Below the pieces are notes generated by a model that had not been told where the DNA came from, did not search any database, and saw only the letters and a list, made by a program, of their open reading frames with translations. Made by a program: the position numbers and the translations under genes. Shown here in pieces: positions 10,770 to 63,544 of a stretch of DNA of 64,000 nt (position 1 is the stretch's first letter; each line of letters opens with the position of its first letter). This DNA is from Brachypterus glaber (lineage: Eukaryota; Arthropoda; Insecta; Coleoptera; Kateretidae), in contig OY294049.1 in NCBI GenBank assembly GCA_958510825.1, forward strand, positions 37,910,774 to 37,974,773, read 5' to 3'.

Positions 10770-11789
10770 TTATGACGAGTTGTGGTTATTCACCCGTGAC
10801 GAGGTTTTTCCTATCAAAGACTTCCATATTGCAGGTAAGTGGTAACCAGTGTCCCTATTGATATTGTTAGGATGCTTGATGATTTCTATAGATTCCCGTA
10901 TCTTCCTTGGCATTTTTCTGTTTTCTGTTAATATTTGTTTTGTTTCAGACAAATTGATTTTATGACCTGTTTCATGTACATGTTCGGCTACTGCCGATAA
11001 GGAAATTTGTTTCTTTCTTATATTGCGCTCATGCTCTTGAAGTCTTGTAGAAATTTTTCTCTTAGTTTCACCTATGTAAACCGAACCACAGGAGCAGGGT
11101 ATTTTATATACGCCTTCTGAACTCAGGGGTATTTTGTCTTTTGTTGAAGTCAAACATTGACCTAATTTTTGGTTGGACCGAAATATAGGCTTAATATTTG
11201 ACTTCTTCAAAAGTTTACCTATTTTTTCCGTGATACCGCTTACATAGGGAAGTATAACTTGTGTCTGTCTGTCATTGTCACTATTGTCCTGTTGTTTGGG
11301 TCTGGGATTTCTGTATTTGTATATGGTCTTATTAATGTCTTTTTTGGTATAACCGTTCATGGTCAAGGCTTTGGTTAGTTTAAGGAGTTCTGTGTCTAGG
11401 GAATTCTTGTCTGAAATCATGAAAGCCCTATGAACAAGTGAATTAACTACCGAGCGTTTTTGAGAGGGATGGTGATGTGAAAATGCGTTTAGGTATCTGT
11501 CAGTGTGGGTTTTCTTCCTGTATACCGAGTGTCCTATTGAGCCATTTTCCGTTTTGTAAACCAAAACGTCCAAAAAGGGAAGTGATCCGTTGTTCTCAAT
11601 TTCCATCGTAAACCGTATAGATTTATGTTGGGAATTGAGGTGATTTAGAAAACCTTGAAGGCTTTCCATGCCATGGGGCCAAATAGCATAGACATCGTCT
11701 ACGTATCTGCGCCAAATTTTAGGTTTTAATGGAAATGACTCAATAGCTTTTTTCTCGAAGTATTCCATGAAAGCATTGGCCGCAGGGGG
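10770..11789 (-). CDS. Penelope-like RT/GIY-YIG endonuclease, C-terminal part
   Basis: A retroelement protein that copies RNA and nicks target DNA. The first ATG gives 332 residues, but the frame stays open to the 5' truncation (340 codons), so that methionine is internal. From that methionine, the RT active site YVDD is at about residues 22-25, followed by the typical SLPFLDVLV block at 62-70. The GIY-YIG nuclease spans about 219-300: GVY at 219-221, YIG at 231-233, the probable catalytic Arg in TRLQEH at 241-246. Cys225 and Cys227 with His263, His265 and His269 resemble the CCHH zinc-binding residues of this endonuclease type. The fingers and most of the palm of the RT are missing, so the copy cannot be autonomous. 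There are no internal stops. Confidence 0.92.
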   Translation of the reverse strand, partial: PPAANAFMEYFEKKAIESFPLKPKIWRRYVDDVYAIWPHGMESLQGFLNHLNSQHKSIRFTMEIENNGSLPFLDVLVYKTENGSIGHSVYRKKTHTDRYLNAFSHHHPSQKRSVVNSLVHRAFMISDKNSLDTELLKLTKALTMNGYTKKDINKTIYKYRNPRPKQQDNSDNDRQTQVILPYVSGITEKIGKLLKKSNIKPIFRSNQKLGQCLTSTKDKIPLSSEGVYKIPCSCGSVYIGETKRKISTRLQEHERNIRKKQISLSAVAEHVHETGHKINLSETKQILTENRKMPRKIRESIEIIKHPNNINRDTGYHLPAIWKSLIGKTSSRVNNHNSS

Positions 11790-11805
11790 TGGCTCTAAAT
11801 ATTAT

Positions 11806-12542: not shown

Positions 12543-12782
12543 TAACACTGTGCGACAGAAAATTTAGGAAAGAGATCTGTCAACGACAGTCGTTAATTTA
12601 GGACCACTATAGTCGAGTCCCCAAGGGGTTTCACTACGTTAGGTCATTTTAAAAAAAATCGCTTAAATGACCTAAAGTAGCGAAACCCCTTGGGGACTCG
12701 ACTATATTAGACCTATTTTTTAAAATTACGCTAACAGATCTCTTGCCTAAAAGATCAACCTCGATTTTGTCGCACAGTGTTA
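12543..12782. mobile_element. Hairpin (foldback) MITE, about 240 bp
   Basis: The ends TAACACTGTGCGACA and TGTCGCACAGTGTTA are inverted. The inner part 12609-12706 forms a long near-perfect stem: TATAGTCGAGTCCCCAAGG is mirrored, with ACGTTAGGTCATTT pairing to AAATGACCTAAAGT. The entire insert can fold as one hairpin. The target duplication is ambiguous because the flanks are AT-rich. Confidence 0.8.
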
Positions 12783-22091: not shown

Positions 22092-22182
22092 GGCACATCT
22101 CGTCATGTGAGGATTATAGTGTTCTACATCCATAGCAAATCTATGGATATAGAACACTATAATCCTCACATGACGATCTGTG
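22092..22182. repeat. Perfect-stem hairpin, 91 bp
   Basis: TCGTCATGTGAGGATTATAG followed by TGTTCTA is mirrored exactly by TAGAACACTATAATCCTCAC then ATGACGA, around a loop holding CCATAG...CTATGG. It is probably the core of a hairpin MITE whose outer ends are not clear. Confidence 0.75.
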
Positions 22183-34001: not shown

Positions 34002-34416
34002 ATGGAGCTCTCTACAACTAGAATTATGAAACAAAAGACGTCTACCCTATCTCTATCTCATTTGTGCTACACTTTCCAGCCACCCAAATAAATACTGTAT
34101 TTGTTTTTCATACAACAAATACAGTATTTATTTGGTTGGCCGGAAAGTGTAGCACTGAGCGGCACGAACGAACATAGCTAATGTGAATCTGTAGAATAAG
34201 ATAATTCTACTAAAATTTAGATGGCGCCAGTAATTTCTTTAATAAAAATAATATAGTTACACTTTTTGCTTGGCCAAGTAAATATTGTATTTGTTCAACA
34301 AAGAACAAATACAGAATTTGTTTGGTTGGGTGTAAGTGGGAGTGTATGTGTATGTCTTCTATCCTTTTTGGGTAGAACTTTTGTCCCTGTCTAATCTAAC
34401 GGAAGAAATCTCCATT
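34002..34416 (+). mobile_element. Two-hairpin element M, copy 1 (intact)
   Basis: Two hairpins lie inside: AAATAAATACTGTATTTGTT with its complement (34084-34136) and AAATATTGTATTTGTTC with GAACAAATACAGAATTTG (34280-34325). The same element, inverted and interrupted, is at 61842-62891. No coding frame. Confidence 0.75.
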
Positions 34417-43539: not shown

Positions 43540-44520
43540 ATCAAATACAAACCAATAGAAATTTGTATTGGTTTTTATTGGTCTCTATTGGTTTTATTGG
43601 TCTTTATTGGTATTAAAATTAAACTCTATTGGTTTATATTGGTCTGTGTTGGAAAAAATTTTTACTGGTTATTACCAATACAAAACGTATTGGTCTGTAT
43701 TGGTTCTTTTCCAAAATATATGTTATTTTATTGGTATGTATTGGTTTAAATTGGATATTATATTTATTGGTAAATACCAATACAAAACTTATTGGTCCGT
43801 ATTGGTTTATTTAAATATTTTTTTTAATATATATTGGTATCTAATGGTTTATATTGGACTTTATATTTATTGGTAAGTACCAATACAAAAACCTTATTTT
43901 TGTATTGGTTTGTATTGGTTTATATTTGACCAAATATCGATATTATATTTATTGGTAAATTCCAATACAAAAACTTATTGGTCTGTATTGGTCTTTTTTA
44001 AATATTTTTTTTTATATTGGTATCTAATGGTTTATATTGGATATTATATTTATTGGTAAATACCAGTACAAAAACCTTCTTTTTTGTATTGGTTTATATT
44101 TGACGAAATATCGATATTATATTTATTGGTAAATACCAATACAAAAACTTATTGGTCTGTATTGGTCTTTTTCAAATATTTTTTTTATATTGGTATCTAA
44201 TGGTTTATATTGGATATTATATTTATTGGTAAATACCAGTACAAAAACCTTCTTTTTTGTATTGGTTCATATTTGTCGAAATATCTATATTATATTTATT
44301 GGCACATACCAATACAAACACTTATTGGTCTGTACAGACCAATACGTATTGGTCTTTTTCAAATATTTTTGTTTATATTATAATATTAATACCAATTGGT
44401 ATCTAATGGTTTGTATTGGATATTATATTTATTGGTAAATACCAATAAAAAAACTTTTTTTTTCTATTGGTTTGTATTGTTTTATATTTGATATTATATT
44501 TATTGGTAAGTACCAAAAAA
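43540..44520. repeat. ATTGGT array, left arm
   Basis: Five to six units of about 90-190 bp, each with TTATTGGTAAATACCAATAC, then TTATTGGTCTGTATTGGT and TGGTATCTAATGGTTTATAT. Frames of 60-100 codons rich in YWSVLV arise only because the unit length suits an open frame. Confidence 0.85.
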
Positions 44521-47066: not shown

Positions 47067-47574
47067 AATTTTTTAAAATGTCTGAATTTATGTTTGTTGT
47101 CAATATTTTGCACGTGTACGAAATAGGACGGTAAGTTCATAATTCTTGACCGATTGTTCTACAATAAATATATTCTTGAAGGATATGATCATTTGCATTT
47201 ATCCATGCAATGTTGTTAAATTTAATTAAATAGTCTTTGTTATGTGAAGTGATTTATTTTTAAGTTAATGATGGGGTTATGATGCGCGTGCTCTACATTT
47301 AATTAAATGGTAATAAAATTAAATAAAAAACAAGTTTTTAAAGTTAAAACCCTTTTATTAATTACATGTTACGTTAAATCAAAAAGTAGAAAACCATATT
47401 TACAAAAAAATTCAAAAACTCGATTTTTAAAAGAAGAGTTTTAAAACGTTCTTTAAACGATTAAAAACTTCAAAACCTTTCTTTTAAAAATCTAGCTTTT
47501 GAAAACCTGTATAAATATCTTGTGTTTAATAAATATGTTTGCATTGTTTTCTTTTTTTACCTTTTGTGCATAAT

Positions 47575-47774
47575 NNNNNNNNNNNNNNNNNNNNNNNNNN
47601 NNNNNNNNNNNNNNNNNNNNNNNNNNNNNNNNNNNNNNNNNNNNNNNNNNNNNNNNNNNNNNNNNNNNNNNNNNNNNNNNNNNNNNNNNNNNNNNNNNNN
47701 NNNNNNNNNNNNNNNNNNNNNNNNNNNNNNNNNNNNNNNNNNNNNNNNNNNNNNNNNNNNNNNNNNNNNNNNNN
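47575..47774. other. Assembly gap (200 N)
   Basis: Exactly 200 undetermined bases, probably a nominal gap size. Frames drawn across it are meaningless. Confidence 0.99.
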
Positions 47775-47819
47775 TTTTCTTTTATTCTTTTTTCATTTGC
47801 GTAGAATTCTGACGTGATG

Positions 47820-47935
47820 GAAAAATAACTAAAGTCAGATTCGAAATCAGCATGCTCATATTATCCAAAATCATATATTCTCAACCACGAAGCAGAAAAA
47901 AAAGTTAAATTTGCAGGCCTGTGTACTCATAGCAG
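47820..47935 (+). repeat. Right part of a second CACAGGTC-type TIR element
   Basis: ACGTGATGG, TTCGAAATCA, ATTATCCAAAATCA and a terminal GCAGGCCTGTGTA parallel 30523-30632. The left part falls in or before the gap. Confidence 0.55.
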
Positions 47936-50929: not shown

Positions 50930-51590
50930 ATGGCATGCTAAAATTTAACATCTACATCCAAAAATATCAAAAAAAGTTCCTATACATAAGGGAGCTACGG
51001 CCCTTCGAAGATGATATATTGAATGGGGAACAAAGAAAAGTACAAATAAAATTATAATGCTGCTCGGTGATACTTCATTTAAAACTGAGCAAAACAGTAT
51101 TCTTCACCAAAACACCTACATTTAATATTAAAGGAGTAATAGCCTTTTAAAAAGTATCTAGCGTTTTTGGTGGCATAAAATGTTACTTCCTCTTAATTGC
51201 ATTTTTTTAAAGGTTTCTCCTACAGTGTTACACTAGATGACATTTTTTATGTATTTTAACTCAAGGAATCAAAAAATACAAAAAAAATACACATGAAAAA
51301 GTTTGGGGCGTCTATGCACGCCTCTGGGTAAATTTAAAAAAATAAATTAACATAAACTTATTGCCTTTATTAATACTAGTATACATGCAAAAGCTCGACG
51401 CTCTAGCTTAAAGGGTACCAGAGTTATTAATTAAAAACTTTATTTTTATTACAATTTTAAACGGTCGTAGCTCCCTTAGGGCCCATTTCCGGACGAACCT
51501 TTATAGAAACTTTTTTTTAATATTTTGGATTGTAGAATCACTTCTTAAATTTTGGCATGACAGTTATTGATCACCCTGTATACAGAGAAA
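50930..51590. repeat. Dispersed repeat L, copy 2 (diverged)
   Basis: Contains AAAAAAAGTTCCTATACATAAG, GGGAGCTACGGCCC, TTTGGGGCGTCTATGCACGC and GACAGTTATTGATCACCCTG, all variants of family L words, in an inverted arrangement around about 51260. Confidence 0.5.
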
Positions 51591-52384
51591 TATGAACTTG
51601 AATGAAAAGTAGCTAATATTTTAGCCAAGTAAACTGTACCTATACTTACAGGAAGATTTTTTAAACTACCCTCCGAAGCCTAAAGGGCTTTTTATAACTT
51701 CTTTTATTAAAAGCGTGCATGTATTCTAGAATTCTTTGAACAAGTTACCTTATATAATTTTCTCGTAAAATGTGTGCCCCAAAAAAAAAACTTTGTGTAT
51801 GTGCTTCCAAAAATATATAGATACTAAGGGAGTTACCATTTTAAAGGGCCATACGAGGAGCTTTGAAAGCGATTTTTGGACCCACTTAGTTTTTGATATA
51901 GAACACTTGAAATTTTGATATTTAACATTTTATTGTTTAATTTTTGGTTGTCGTAAGTTTTCCTTTAAATTGCATTTTTTTAAACGGTTAATCCTACGCT
52001 ATTACAACAATTATGCAATTTTATCTGTGTATAAACTGAAACATTTTAAACAAACCGTTTTGTAATAAAAAAGATTTCGAAGAATTATTGCCCTCCTCTT
52101 CGTGGTTTACGTATAAATTTCTCGGGCTTCTTCTGCAAGATATTCCTCTATAGGAGCGAGTGAAGATTTTTTTAAGTATGATATCGTTCTGGCAGGGGTC
52201 CCAGGAGGGGGGTGGGGTCCGCCCCCGCGGCATAGAGTCGCGTGTAGACCGTTGTTGAATCTTGAGGTCAGGACCATTGGCTTACAAACTATGTAATTTT
52301 TTTCGAAATAATCATGTCTAAATGGTATTGAGACACCAAAAAACATTTTTTTTCAAAAAAGTCGAAGGGCTGGTGAGTGGTGAC
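51591..52384. other. Diverged L-like and J-like repeat DNA
   Basis: About 51770-52010 resembles the inner part of L (GTGCTTCCAAAAATATATAG, GGGAGTTACCATTTTAAAGG). A GC-rich patch CCCAGGAGGGGGGTGGGG lies at 52200. About 52340-52384 belongs to repeat J and is the left flank of the 362-bp array. Confidence 0.45.
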
Positions 52385-52431
52385 TTTTTTTATTTTAAGA
52401 AAGTTATCTATCTGTCGTTAAAATCAAATGG

Positions 52432-52494
52432 ACAGGAAACAGTGAATAGTACCATTTCATCCTTTTTGGGAATCATCAGCACTGTGTATCCTGT
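52432..52494 (-). ncRNA. Hammerhead ribozyme-like motif, unit 1
   Basis: Minus strand, 5' to 3': stem I outer ACAGGA (52489-52494), bulge UAC, stem I inner ACAGUG (52480-52485), core CUGAUGA (52473-52479), stem II UUCC/GGAU around loop CAAAAA, core GAAA (52455-52458), minimal stem III inside UGGUACUA, then UU ending at 52445 (predicted cleavage after it), stem I inner CACUGU (52439-52444) and outer UCCUGU (52432-52437). The outer and inner parts of stem I are both fully complementary. The only core deviation is a U-U at the first stem II pair. Confidence 0.75.
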
Positions 52495-52793
52495 ATGTTG
52501 CTAATATTCAAATAAAACGTTAGATAGATATAAAAGCATGGTGCCATCTATTGATGTGGTCACTGTTATCTGTTCACTTGTTCCCAAAAGGCAAATCGCC
52601 ACAATTTAGGGTGTACAGTAACGTGCATTCAAAATGACACGGACCTAAACCATTATATGAACCTTTAGCCGGTTAAGAAGAGTTAAATAAGTTAAGAATT
52701 GACAGTCTATAAAAATATATACTGCACGTTTGTCGGTTAATAACCGAAAAATATATATAAGAAAGTTATCTATCTGTCGTTAAAATCAAATGG

Positions 52794-52856
52794 ACAGGAA
52801 ACAGTGAATAGTACCATTTCATCCTTTTTGGGAATCATCAGCACTGTGTATCCTGT
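52794..52856 (-). ncRNA. Hammerhead ribozyme-like motif, unit 2
   Basis: Identical to unit 1, shifted by 362 bases. The predicted cleavage sites of units 1 and 2 would release a 362-nt RNA. Confidence 0.75.
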
Positions 52857-53155
52857 ATGTTGCTAATATTCAAATAAAACGTTAGATAGATATAAAAGCA
52901 TGGTGCCATCTATTAATGTGGTCACTGTTATCTGTTCACTTGTTCCCAAAAGGCAAATCGCCACAATTTAGGGTGTACAGTAACGTGCATTCAAAATGAC
53001 ACGGACCTAAACCATTATATGAACCTTTAGCCGGTTAAGAAGAGTTAAATAAGTTAAGAATTGACAGTCTATAAAAATATATACTGCACGTTTGTCGGTT
53101 AATAACCGAAAAATATATATAAGAAAGTTATCTATCTGTCGTTAAAATCAAATGG

Positions 53156-53218
53156 ACAGGAAACAGTGAATAGTACCATTTCATCCTTTTTGGGAATCAT
53201 CAGCACTGTGTATCCTGT
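53156..53218 (-). ncRNA. Hammerhead ribozyme-like motif, unit 3
   Basis: Identical to unit 1, shifted by 724 bases. Confidence 0.75.
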
Positions 53219-53517
53219 ATGTTGCTAATATTCAAATAAAACGTTAGATAGATATAAAAGCATGGTGCCATCTATTGATGTGGTCACTGTTATCTGTTCA
53301 CTTGTTCCCAAAAGGCAAATCGCCACAATTTAGGGTGTACAGTAACGTGCATTCAAAATGACACGGACCTAAACCATTATATGAACCTTTAGCCGGTTAA
53401 GAAGAGTTAAATAAGTTAAGAATTGACAGTCTATAAAAATATATACTGCACGTTTGTCGGTTAATAACCGAAAAATATATATAAGAAAGTTATCTATCTG
53501 TCGTTAAAATCAAATGG

Positions 53518-53580
53518 ACAGGAAACAGTGAATAGTACCATTTCATCCTTTTTGGGAATCATCAGCACTGTGTATCCTGT
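53518..53580 (-). ncRNA. Hammerhead ribozyme-like motif, unit 4
   Basis: Identical to unit 1 although the unit itself is truncated at 53605. This is the first ribozyme on a minus-strand transcript, 25 bases inside the element's 5' end. Confidence 0.75.
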
Positions 53581-53618
53581 ATGTTGCTAATATTCAAATA
53601 AAACGTTTTTTTATTTTA

Positions 53619-54140
53619 TTATTTTCTCCCGGCTGCATTTTATGTATGTCTTAAGCTATTTTCAAATCGCCAGGTCATATGTCCGGTTTTTTTAGATGCT
53701 GGAAGCTATTTTTTTTCATAGTTACACGCAATAATTTTGGGATAAAAACAGTTTTTTTGACAAAGGGCCGCATTTAATTCATTTTAAGGGGAGGACCATC
53801 CATAAAGAAAAAAATGCGCATTCAACAAAAATATAATTTTGAAGGTATTTATATGCTAATATTGAAGAACAACAGAGTATTCCTTGAAGTTTTTCATGGT
53901 CCTTCGAGCCGGATACTCTATTGTTCTTCATGTATTGTTCTTCATGTTCAAATATATCTCGCTGGGGGGATTTAACATCTGTCAATTCTCAAAATTTCAT
54001 TTCACCAAAAAGTCATTTCATAAATATGAAAAAAAAATTGAATATGAAATATAATAATATGTCAAATGCAGTTTTTAAAGACTGTTTTACTCCTTGGCTC
54101 CAGAATTGTGTATAACTATGAAAAAAACTTTATCTAAATA
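53619..54140 (+). repeat. Dispersed repeat J, copy 3 (right flank of the array)
   Basis: CCCGGCTGCATTTTATGTAT, TTAAGCTATTTTCAAAT and later TTTTACTCCTTGGCTCCAG with TTGTGTATAACTATG parallel 36270-36500. An extra block with an inverted pair (TATTGTTCTTCATG and the AAGAACAACAGAGTATTCC region) lies at 53860-53950. Confidence 0.6.
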
Positions 54141-54249
54141 TAATAAATAAATAGCTAACATTATTATCACTAAAAAAATGTTTCTAGAATATTAAATACA
54201 TTTTAATTTTTAATGTTAATTTAATATTTTATGTCGTGGTGACACGATT

Positions 54250-54362
54250 TAAATTAGATGATTTAGTCTTATAGTATATATAAAATAAAAAAAATAAAAA
54301 AAAAGCAAAAAAATTACAAAAATCAAAAAAAAAAACAAAAAAAAAATAAAAAAAAAATACCT
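54250..54362. repeat. A-rich low-complexity tract
   Basis: Almost pure A with occasional T or C; the frames over it are artefacts. Confidence 0.9.
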
Positions 54363-54414
54363 TTGTATAACAAACCTCAATAAACTTTGAAAATGGAAGC
54401 CAGTGGTTGTGACT

Positions 54415-54600
54415 TGACGAAAAGTGCGGCAAGAACGGCAATCTTGGGCATGGAGAGTGGACCTGGTCATGATGGCCTGGGGGTCACCTCGTGAGCGGGA
54501 GAGAAGCACCATCCACAAAGCATTGCGATTGTCCCCCCTGGCCGAGTCATTGTGCCCAGGTCTTAGACCCACCGTGTACAACACGATGGTAATACTTGGA
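54415..54600. other. GC-rich island, unrecognised
   Basis: Sharp rise in GC between 54415 and 54600, directly after the A-rich tract. Both strands have frames across it (the minus one extends to 111 codons, mostly through the A tract). No domain recognised. An A-rich tract beside it could be the tail of a minus-strand-derived retrocopy, but no flanking duplication was found. Confidence 0.35.
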
Positions 54601-61841: not shown

Positions 61842-62891
61842 GGCGATTTCTCCCGTTAGATTAGACAGCTACAAAAGTTCTACCCAAAAAAGATAGAAGA
61901 CATACATACACTCCCACTTCCACCCAACCAAACAAATTCTGTATTTGTTCTTTGTTGAACAAATACAATATTTACTTGGCCGGGCGAAAAGTGTTACTAT
62001 AATATTTTTATTAAAGAAATTACTGGCGCCATCTAAATTTTAGTAGAATTATCTTATTCTAAAGATTCACATTAGCTGTGTTCGTTCGTACCGGTCACTG
62101 CTACACTTTCCGGCCAACCAAATAAATACTGTATTTGTTGTATAAAAAACAAATACTGTTACAACCACATTTCTGTGTTTGTATTTATTTTTAATTTGGG
62201 TTTTATTATACATAATTTCATTTAATTTCTTTACTTAGTTATAATTCAAAAATAATATTTTGTTTTAAATTAATTGTATTTTTGTAAGTAACGCGCTGAA
62301 AACCTCCTAGCTTTTCTGCGCGAGTTCGGGTAGGTTGCCTTCCGGACCAGTAGCAATTTGACTCTCGAGAACGATCGATGCGTGTCAATAAAAATATACT
62401 CAAAATCAGCTGACGAATATACCACGCCGCGGGCATTCGTTAGAATTTACCATATTTTACGGCTGCAAACTATAGAAATAAGTTCCATATACACATATGT
62501 ATTTAAATAATTAGTAGTGTATACCTACACTGGTCAAACAAACTTTAATTCGCGTACATCAGTTTCCAATTATGTGGTGTCTCCTGTGAAGAAATGGCGG
62601 TCATGACCTGTCGTGCTGAATGCTGTAACTAAGGTAAGATTACCATATATATTATTGGAACTGTCGTTTTGTCTTTAATATTCTTTTCAATCATTAATAC
62701 CTATTCGCAGTCCACTTAATTAATATCATAAAGGCGATGTTACGGAGGCAATCCCATATCACCGAATGGGACCTTTCGACGTCACACAACAAATACAGTA
62801 TTTATTTGGTTGGCTGGAAAGTGTAGCACAAATAAGATAGAGATAGGGTAGACGTCTTTTGTTTCATAATTCTAGTTGTAGAGACCTCCAT
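61842..62891 (-). mobile_element. Two-hairpin element M, copy 2 (interrupted)
   Basis: Inverse copy of 34002-34416, split into 61842-62156 and 62788-62891 by an insertion in one hairpin. Both hairpin stems are recognisable. Confidence 0.8.
62157..62787. mobile_element. 631-bp insertion with 9-bp target duplication
   Basis: AACAAATAC occurs at 62148-62156 and 62788-62796, and copy 1 of element M has the uninterrupted sequence. The insert begins TGTTACAACC and ends GTCACAC. A TG...CA frame would suit a solo LTR, but a 9-bp duplication is long for one, and no terminal inverted repeat supports a Mutator-type element. Class unresolved. Confidence 0.65.
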
Positions 62892-63230: not shown

Positions 63231-63544
63231 CTGTCATTCTTACGATATTACACTACACTGAAAAGAAGGATTCCTTGAACCAAGGACACGTGTCTTTCGA
63301 TATGTTCAATGCATATTCTCTTGTTTCAAGGCTAGCATTTCTTTAAACCAAAGTCAATGTCCTTAAATGAAGAGCATGGGTTTTTGAGTGAAGATCCGCG
63401 CTCTTTATTCAAGGACATTGACTTTGGTTCAAAGAAATGCTAGCCTTCAAACAAGAGAATATGCATTGAACATATCGAAACACACGTGTCCTTGGTTCAA
63501 GGAATCCTTCTTTTCAGTGTAGTGTAATATCGTAAGAATGACAG
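63231..63544. repeat. 314-bp near-perfect palindrome
   Basis: The outer arms CTGTCATTCTTACGATATTA... (63231-63253) and their exact complement (63522-63544) enclose the MITE at 63254-63521. The two sets of inverted repeats are continuous, so the whole block folds as one hairpin. Confidence 0.85.
63256..63519. mobile_element. Hairpin MITE with CACTGAAAAG ends
   Basis: Begins CACTGAAAAGAAGGATTCCT and ends with the complement, flanked by TA (63254-63255 and 63520-63521). The arms pair along nearly their whole length around a loop near 63385. Related ends occur at 23974 and 57720. Confidence 0.8.

Follow-up and report, generated by a model that had tools for sequence, protein, structure and literature searches.

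What is the short tandem array that lies in the genome of the beetle Brachypterus glaber: satellite DNA, a part of a coding retroelement, or a non-coding mobile element that spreads by way of self-cleaving RNA? The array is found in a 64,000-nucleotide stretch of contig OY294049.1 (assembly GCA_958510825.1), called the window below, and all positions are those of the window. The region 52398–53605, read in the minus-strand sense, is 1208 bp long and consists of 3.34 tandem units of 362 bp each (Table 1). Most probably it arose when a non-LTR retrozyme of the animal kind was recently inserted into the genome, a reading to which we assign a probability of roughly 0.88. The initial annotation had proposed a retrozyme candidate here, and, judged from the sequence, this is the best reading, supported by a type I hammerhead in each unit, the unit size, the low G+C content, the lack of a long open reading frame (ORF) and a 13-bp duplication of the target.

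The array and its ends

The tandem organisation described in the initial annotation was recovered by TRF (period 362, 3.3 copies, 99% matches, score 2417), and its coordinates proved to be base-exact, being the ends that remain once a flanking 13-bp repeat is removed. The period of 362 bp and the 3.34 units fit the tandem units of about 150–450 bp expected of a retrozyme. Direct comparison revealed near-identical units with a single substitution, at position 52915, where unit 2 has A versus G. The insertion is read as recent because this is the one difference in 3.34 units; the near-identity could also be explained by sequence exchange between units or by assembly. The window contains 200 N, with a run of N within 47465–47860, which means that the assembly is a draft and that the copy number of the array may be collapsed. 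No stop-to-stop ORF of at least 100 aa was found in 52398–53605, and the array is thus non-coding. The G+C content of the predicted monomer (34%) lies below the 45–50% expected as the upper limit for retrozymes, which is weakly informative because the sixteen 4-kb bins of the window span 26.7%–34.5%.

Table 1. Positions of the array, its predicted parts and two retroelement sequences of the window
Feature	Position	Strand	Basis or remark
Proposed non-LTR retrozyme, whole insertion	52398..53605	-	TRF, direct unit comparison and predicted cuts
Putative target-site duplication, left copy (13-bp direct repeat TTTTTTTATTTTA)	52385..52397	.	Direct comparison
Putative target-site duplication, right copy (13-bp direct repeat TTTTTTTATTTTA)	53606..53618	.	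Direct comparison
Hammerhead 1, 63 nt (outer and inner stem I, core, stem II, stem III)	53518..53580	-	Predicted cut 53531/53530
Hammerhead 2	53156..53218	-	Predicted cut 53169/53168
Hammerhead 3	52794..52856	-	Predicted cut 52807/52806
Hammerhead 4	52432..52494	-	Predicted cut 52445/52444
Predicted self-cleaved monomer 1, 362 nt	53169..53530	-	34% G+C
Predicted monomer 2, 362 nt	52807..53168	-	Holds the lone substitution (52915)
Predicted monomer 3, 362 nt	52445..52806	-	
Penelope-like element fragment, 343 aa, outside the insertion	10773..11801	-	Protein relatives
Reverse transcriptase ORF, 586 aa	16852-18609	-	RVT_1, E 8.3e-31

Both ends of the array are abutted by a perfect direct repeat (13/13), which was absent from the initial annotation and adds to the retrozyme reading. 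When sites with similar spacing were drawn at random, 6 of 20000 draws gave a match of at least 13 bp abutting both ends, allowing a slide of up to 3 bases per end and skipping the draws near N, which are still counted in the 20000. In a T-rich control, with at least 9 T in 13 in the left flank and a right flank free of this requirement, 1 of 5790 pairs reached at least 13 bp. The duplicated target is A/T-rich and exceeds 4 bp, as is expected of a retrozyme of this kind. Duplications of 15 bp flank the Nematostella repeats (PMC4918200, in part), and those of some rotifer Penelope elements measure 8–10 bp (PMC3846280, in part). Taken on sequence evidence, the flanking repeat would mark a single retrotransposition event and not a satellite block.

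The minus-strand transcript of the array is predicted to be cleaved into products of 75, 362, 362, 362 and 47 nt, so that the array begins 75 nt before the first cut site and ends 47 nt after the last one. Ends lying away from the cut sites, together with the 3.34 units, require a circular or multimeric template, since one linear monomer of 362 nt could not produce them; the template may also have been an uncut multimeric transcript.

The same evidence bears on the explanation that the array is a satellite block expanded by unequal crossing-over, in which the hammerhead is a relic and the block is not itself mobile. The units are indeed tandem and head-to-tail, and satellites bearing hammerheads occur in cave crickets (PMC2837043, in part) and newts (PMC7229834, in part). 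However, the array has sharp ends, each with the 13-bp duplication, and only 3.34 units, and no further copies of the unit were found elsewhere in the 64-kb window, just short matches with a best E of 0.024. This makes a satellite origin improbable. The lack of further copies within the window also weighs on the retrozyme reading, for which a dispersed multicopy family is expected.

The hammerhead and its matches

Each unit contains a complete type I hammerhead on the minus strand, in four exact copies along the array. All the motifs listed in the initial annotation (CUGAUGA, stem II, GAAA, UGGUACUA, UU, CACUGU and ACAGGA/UCCUGU) are present at the four places, and the cut which it placed after 52445 coincides with the fourth predicted cut site. 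The hammerhead runs in the order CUGAUGA core, stem II, GAA, stem III AUGGUACUAU, U and cut. Stem I comprises two 6-bp helices separated by an internal loop, the second helix being ACAGGA/UCCUGU, with CACUGU also present. Stem II is formed by the pairs U-U, U-A, C-G and C-G and closed by the loop CAAAAA, and the decamer of stem III is self-complementary over its whole length. The cleavage triplet is AUU, a slow one, and this counts against the retrozyme reading.

The search of the minus strand with Rfam hammerhead models, proposed as a check in the initial annotation, had a divided outcome. At the gathering threshold the array hammerheads gave 0 matches, and at a relaxed threshold the model RF02275 (Hammerhead_HH9) matched all four sites with 29.8 bits versus a curated cut-off of 52. 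A hammerhead is thus found in 4 of 4 units, though with a score below gathering. The E-value of this match is 9.4e-5 in a 3-kb search and 0.002 in the 64-kb window; the latter is not used alone because E-values of the relaxed scan run generous in this window, where the best of them, down to 4.8e-10, belong to miRNA families in hairpins. All the conserved core letters are present, and HH9, the best-scoring model, shares the loop II sequence CAAAAA, identical to its consensus, and a similar internal loop of stem I. The letters bearing on possible tertiary contacts between loops I and II resemble those of HH9. We take HH9 to be an amniote intronic hammerhead, that is, a single intronic motif and not a tandem mobile element.

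A type I hammerhead descriptor applied to both strands of the window gave 4 matches, all within the array, versus 0.04 per 64 kb expected by chance (100 first-order Markov simulations); the descriptor does not demand pairing at the first position of stem II, a tolerance that was set after the sequence had been seen. A looser descriptor, run over the whole window without a shuffled control, returned 8 rows, which are the same four sites in two registers each, and no hammerheads elsewhere, including minimal ones and including the surroundings of the Penelope-like fragment. Being identical, the four copies together count as a single line of evidence from the sequence. On the plus strand, the relaxed Rfam scan of 51500–54500 revealed no ribozyme in the array, the sole match inside it being CRISPR-DR25 with E 1.9.

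The exact 25-base core is absent from the viral contigs. A looser 17-base pattern matched 20 viral and at least 116 prokaryotic stretches; of the 137 matches in 136 stretches, 4 have loosely fitting stems. None was judged a convincing relative, and these matches serve as a picture of what chance produces. One stretch (L038) has two matches 90 bases apart and looks, by eye, like a coding repeat.

Two further explanations can be weighed. The array might represent the pseudo-LTR of a Penelope-like element, solo or in tandem, with a hammerhead of the minimal kind. Penelope-like elements do occur in tandem and bear type I hammerheads (PMC11167929; PMC7761336, in part), and the window holds a piece of such an element. 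Against this, published Penelope-like hammerheads are usually minimal, without helix III or tertiary interactions (PMC6155905, in part), whereas stem I of the array has two helices and an internal loop; nor does any array ORF reach 100 aa, let alone encode a reverse transcriptase with GIY-YIG. Such an origin seems very improbable. A tRNA-derived SINE with a hammerhead, comparable to the schistosome Sm-alpha element, would likewise be short, non-coding and flanked by a target-site duplication, but it can practically be set aside, as ARAGORN (bacterial settings) finds no tRNA in the window and the closest approaches to box A and box B in the RNA sense, with 1 and 2 mismatches, form no promoter because they overlap with starts one base apart.

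The Penelope-like fragment ends upstream within the reverse transcriptase. Of 1142 candidate proteins, 393 are related to it at E ≤ 0.001. Among the best 120 of these 393, 10 have a GIY-YIG domain (PF01541) in their precomputed annotation, and of four relatives that were scanned, P0144 and P0155 contain both RVT_1 and GIY-YIG above the cut-off, P0127 contains RVT_1 only and P0121 has RVT_1 below the cut-off. In the 343-aa fragment itself, no Pfam domains were found. Among the best 120 relatives listed, an organism is given in 26 rows. Insects account for 21 of them (Macrosteles, Megachile, Temnothorax, Diachasma, Sitophilus and others); the remainder are lamprey, coral, sea urchin, crinoid and a single record that bears the label of a bacterial MAG. 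This makeup points to an insect as the probable host, though it follows what has been sequenced. The fragment shows that Penelope-like elements, a candidate kind of helper, occur in the same genome, and such an element is a possible type of helper for the 362-bp element. The window also contains a 586-aa reverse transcriptase, whose ten best relatives are 50–58% identical and whose 120 listed relatives include two named rows, both insects; we take it to be Jockey-like.

Some other repeats of the window can be recorded. Hairpins at 34056–34160, 61906–62002, 22098–22178 and 63330–63445 match Rfam miRNA families with scores far under the gathering thresholds, and three of them do so on both strands; our guess is that they are small inverted-repeat transposons. 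A long, near-perfect foldback seen by eye at 12600–12710, around GAGTCCCCAAGGGGTTTC, looks like a small inverted-repeat element. TRF also detected tandem repeats based on TATTGG/ACCAATA at 43562–44334, with periods of 10, 20, 73, 103 and 173.

Folding of one and two copies

The lone 63-nt motif is predicted to form an inactive hairpin by pairing of GUGCUG and UGGUAC (-15.6 kcal/mol); the mean pair probability is 0.64, with 0.31 for the inner and 0.95 for the outer helix of stem I. For a 74-nt piece, the hammerhead form has -11.8 versus -16.1 kcal/mol for the preferred fold, tertiary contacts being uncounted. A 70-nt piece with the motif shows no unusual stability, as 18 of 200 shuffles are at least as good (z -1.43). 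The same hairpin recurs in the predicted fold of the 362-nt circle. This circle is 56% paired, below the value of above 70% reported for animal retrozyme RNA, which is more a description than a definition (PMC4918200, in part). The linear monomer folds modestly better than its shuffles (z -1.72; 4 of 100 as good).

Two copies behave differently. Two unconstrained strands fold into a double hammerhead at -40.4 versus 2 x -15.6 kcal/mol separately, and so does an unconstrained transcript with two copies 362 nt apart, where stem III has 10 of 10 pairs (mean probability 0.97) and the crossed stem I has 24 of 24, counting both helices and both cores. The double fold also pairs A14 with U17 beside stem III, a pair that the active core must open. 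In the fold of the whole element, copies 1 and 4 and copies 2 and 3 are paired, so that the pairing is not limited to neighbours.

When the spacer was shuffled, the dimeric stem III (at least 8 of 10 pairs) was retained in 91 of 100 cases and the crossed inner stem I (at least 10 of 12) in 79 of 100, versus 2 and 24 of 100 when the decamer was permuted. The inner stem I within one copy (at least 5 of 12 pairs) appeared in 43 of 100 decamer-permuted versus 0 of 100 spacer-shuffled sequences. The preference for the dimer rests largely on the stem III palindrome, because permutation of the decamer abolishes most of the dimer pairing. Since 995 of 20000 decamer permutations are self-complementary, the palindrome alone is weak proof of selection.

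These predicted folds suggest a more tentative idea, which we hold to be rather doubtful: the ribozyme may act as a copy-number switch, on in the dimer and off in the monomer, with circles protected by their own sequence and copied by a Penelope-like enzyme from a preferred start. Hammerhead pairs in the nascent multimer would join via the self-complementary stem III and then cut; in a lone 362-nt circle, the GUGCUG/UGGUAC hairpin would disable the core, and the Penelope-like enzyme would copy the circle from a preferred start shortly downstream of the hammerhead. Cervera and de la Peña consider that self-pairing is probably not what blocks the hammerhead in animal circles, although some mussel circles are predicted to be exceptions (PMC7229834, in part). 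In the 362-nt element, the block may likewise come from the element's own sequence.

A probable retrozyme among known systems

Known animal retrozymes are transcribed, self-cleaving and circularised (in vitro by RtcB), and their reverse transcription is thought to be performed by a non-LTR or Penelope-like enzyme (PMC7229834 and PMC7761336, both in part). By analogy with these members, the minus-strand transcripts of the present element would self-cleave, mostly through hammerhead pairs joined by the self-complementary stem III, and a host RNA ligase would then close the 362-nt monomers into circles. The reverse transcriptase of another element, Penelope-like or LINE, would use a nicked A/T-rich target and begin copying 47 nt past the last cut site. 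It would complete more than three turns of the circle, and the product inserted would be a concatemer incomplete at both ends.

The Penelope-like enzyme of the anole cuts A/T-rich DNA and starts copying inside the template, downstream of the hammerhead; in that element the cut lies at +26 and the start at 111–118 of the ORF, i.e., some 85–92 nt apart (PMC11167929). In a general way, a start at 47 nt would be in keeping with this enzyme, yet the distance differs, and one insertion proves nothing. With the anole enzyme in vitro, uncut RNA is the main substrate and the hammerhead is dispensable for insertion (PMC11167929). A LINE as the copying enzyme would also fit.

The array resembles the metazoan non-LTR retrozymes of coral, mussel and axolotl (PMC7229834, in part) in the type I hammerhead of each unit, a unit of 362 nt within their reported range of 170–400 nt, the low G+C content, the tandem copies, the presence of Penelope-like elements in the same genome and a duplication (13 bp here) that exceeds the 4 bp of plants. 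It differs from them in the fully self-complementary decamer of stem III and in a monomer circle less paired than described.

In the axolotl HHR_Amex2, from a unit of 350 bp, helix II likewise begins with a U-U mismatch, and cleavage in vitro reaches 22% in an hour for the monomer and much more for the dimer (PMC7229834, in part). The initial annotation had noted the U-U pair as a deviation, and its concern that folding may be weakened is softened by this example. The array hammerhead is likewise predicted to be weak as a monomer and much better as a dimer. In HHR_Amex2, however, stem III consists of two pairs and a tetraloop. In the hammerheads of cave crickets, the first pair of stem II shows compensatory changes (PMC2837043, in part). 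Their pDo500 satellite in Dolichopoda is another insect hammerhead repeat with a double-hammerhead model, in which a single repeat supplies stem III, and stems I and II pair two repeats with each other (PMC2837043, in part); in the double fold of the array, unlike pDo500, stems I and III form between copies and stem II within one. Amphibian motifs combine a weak stem III with action as dimers, and dimer action has been proposed for Penelope-like elements (PMC7761336, in part).

No paper on this particular element was noticed, which says little. All its parts are already known, and their combination is new within the known class of animal retrozymes; as far as seen, the less usual trait is the joint occurrence of a fully self-complementary stem III decamer and a competing monomer fold. 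The element leaves the picture of what retrozymes are unchanged. As both ends and the target-site duplication can be read in one complete, apparently recent insertion, the model of copying several turns round the circle becomes testable at one locus. The contrast between single-copy and two-copy folding offers a concrete, testable idea of what keeps the circles of animal retrozymes whole, and the copy-number switch, if true, would answer for this element what stops such circles from cutting themselves.
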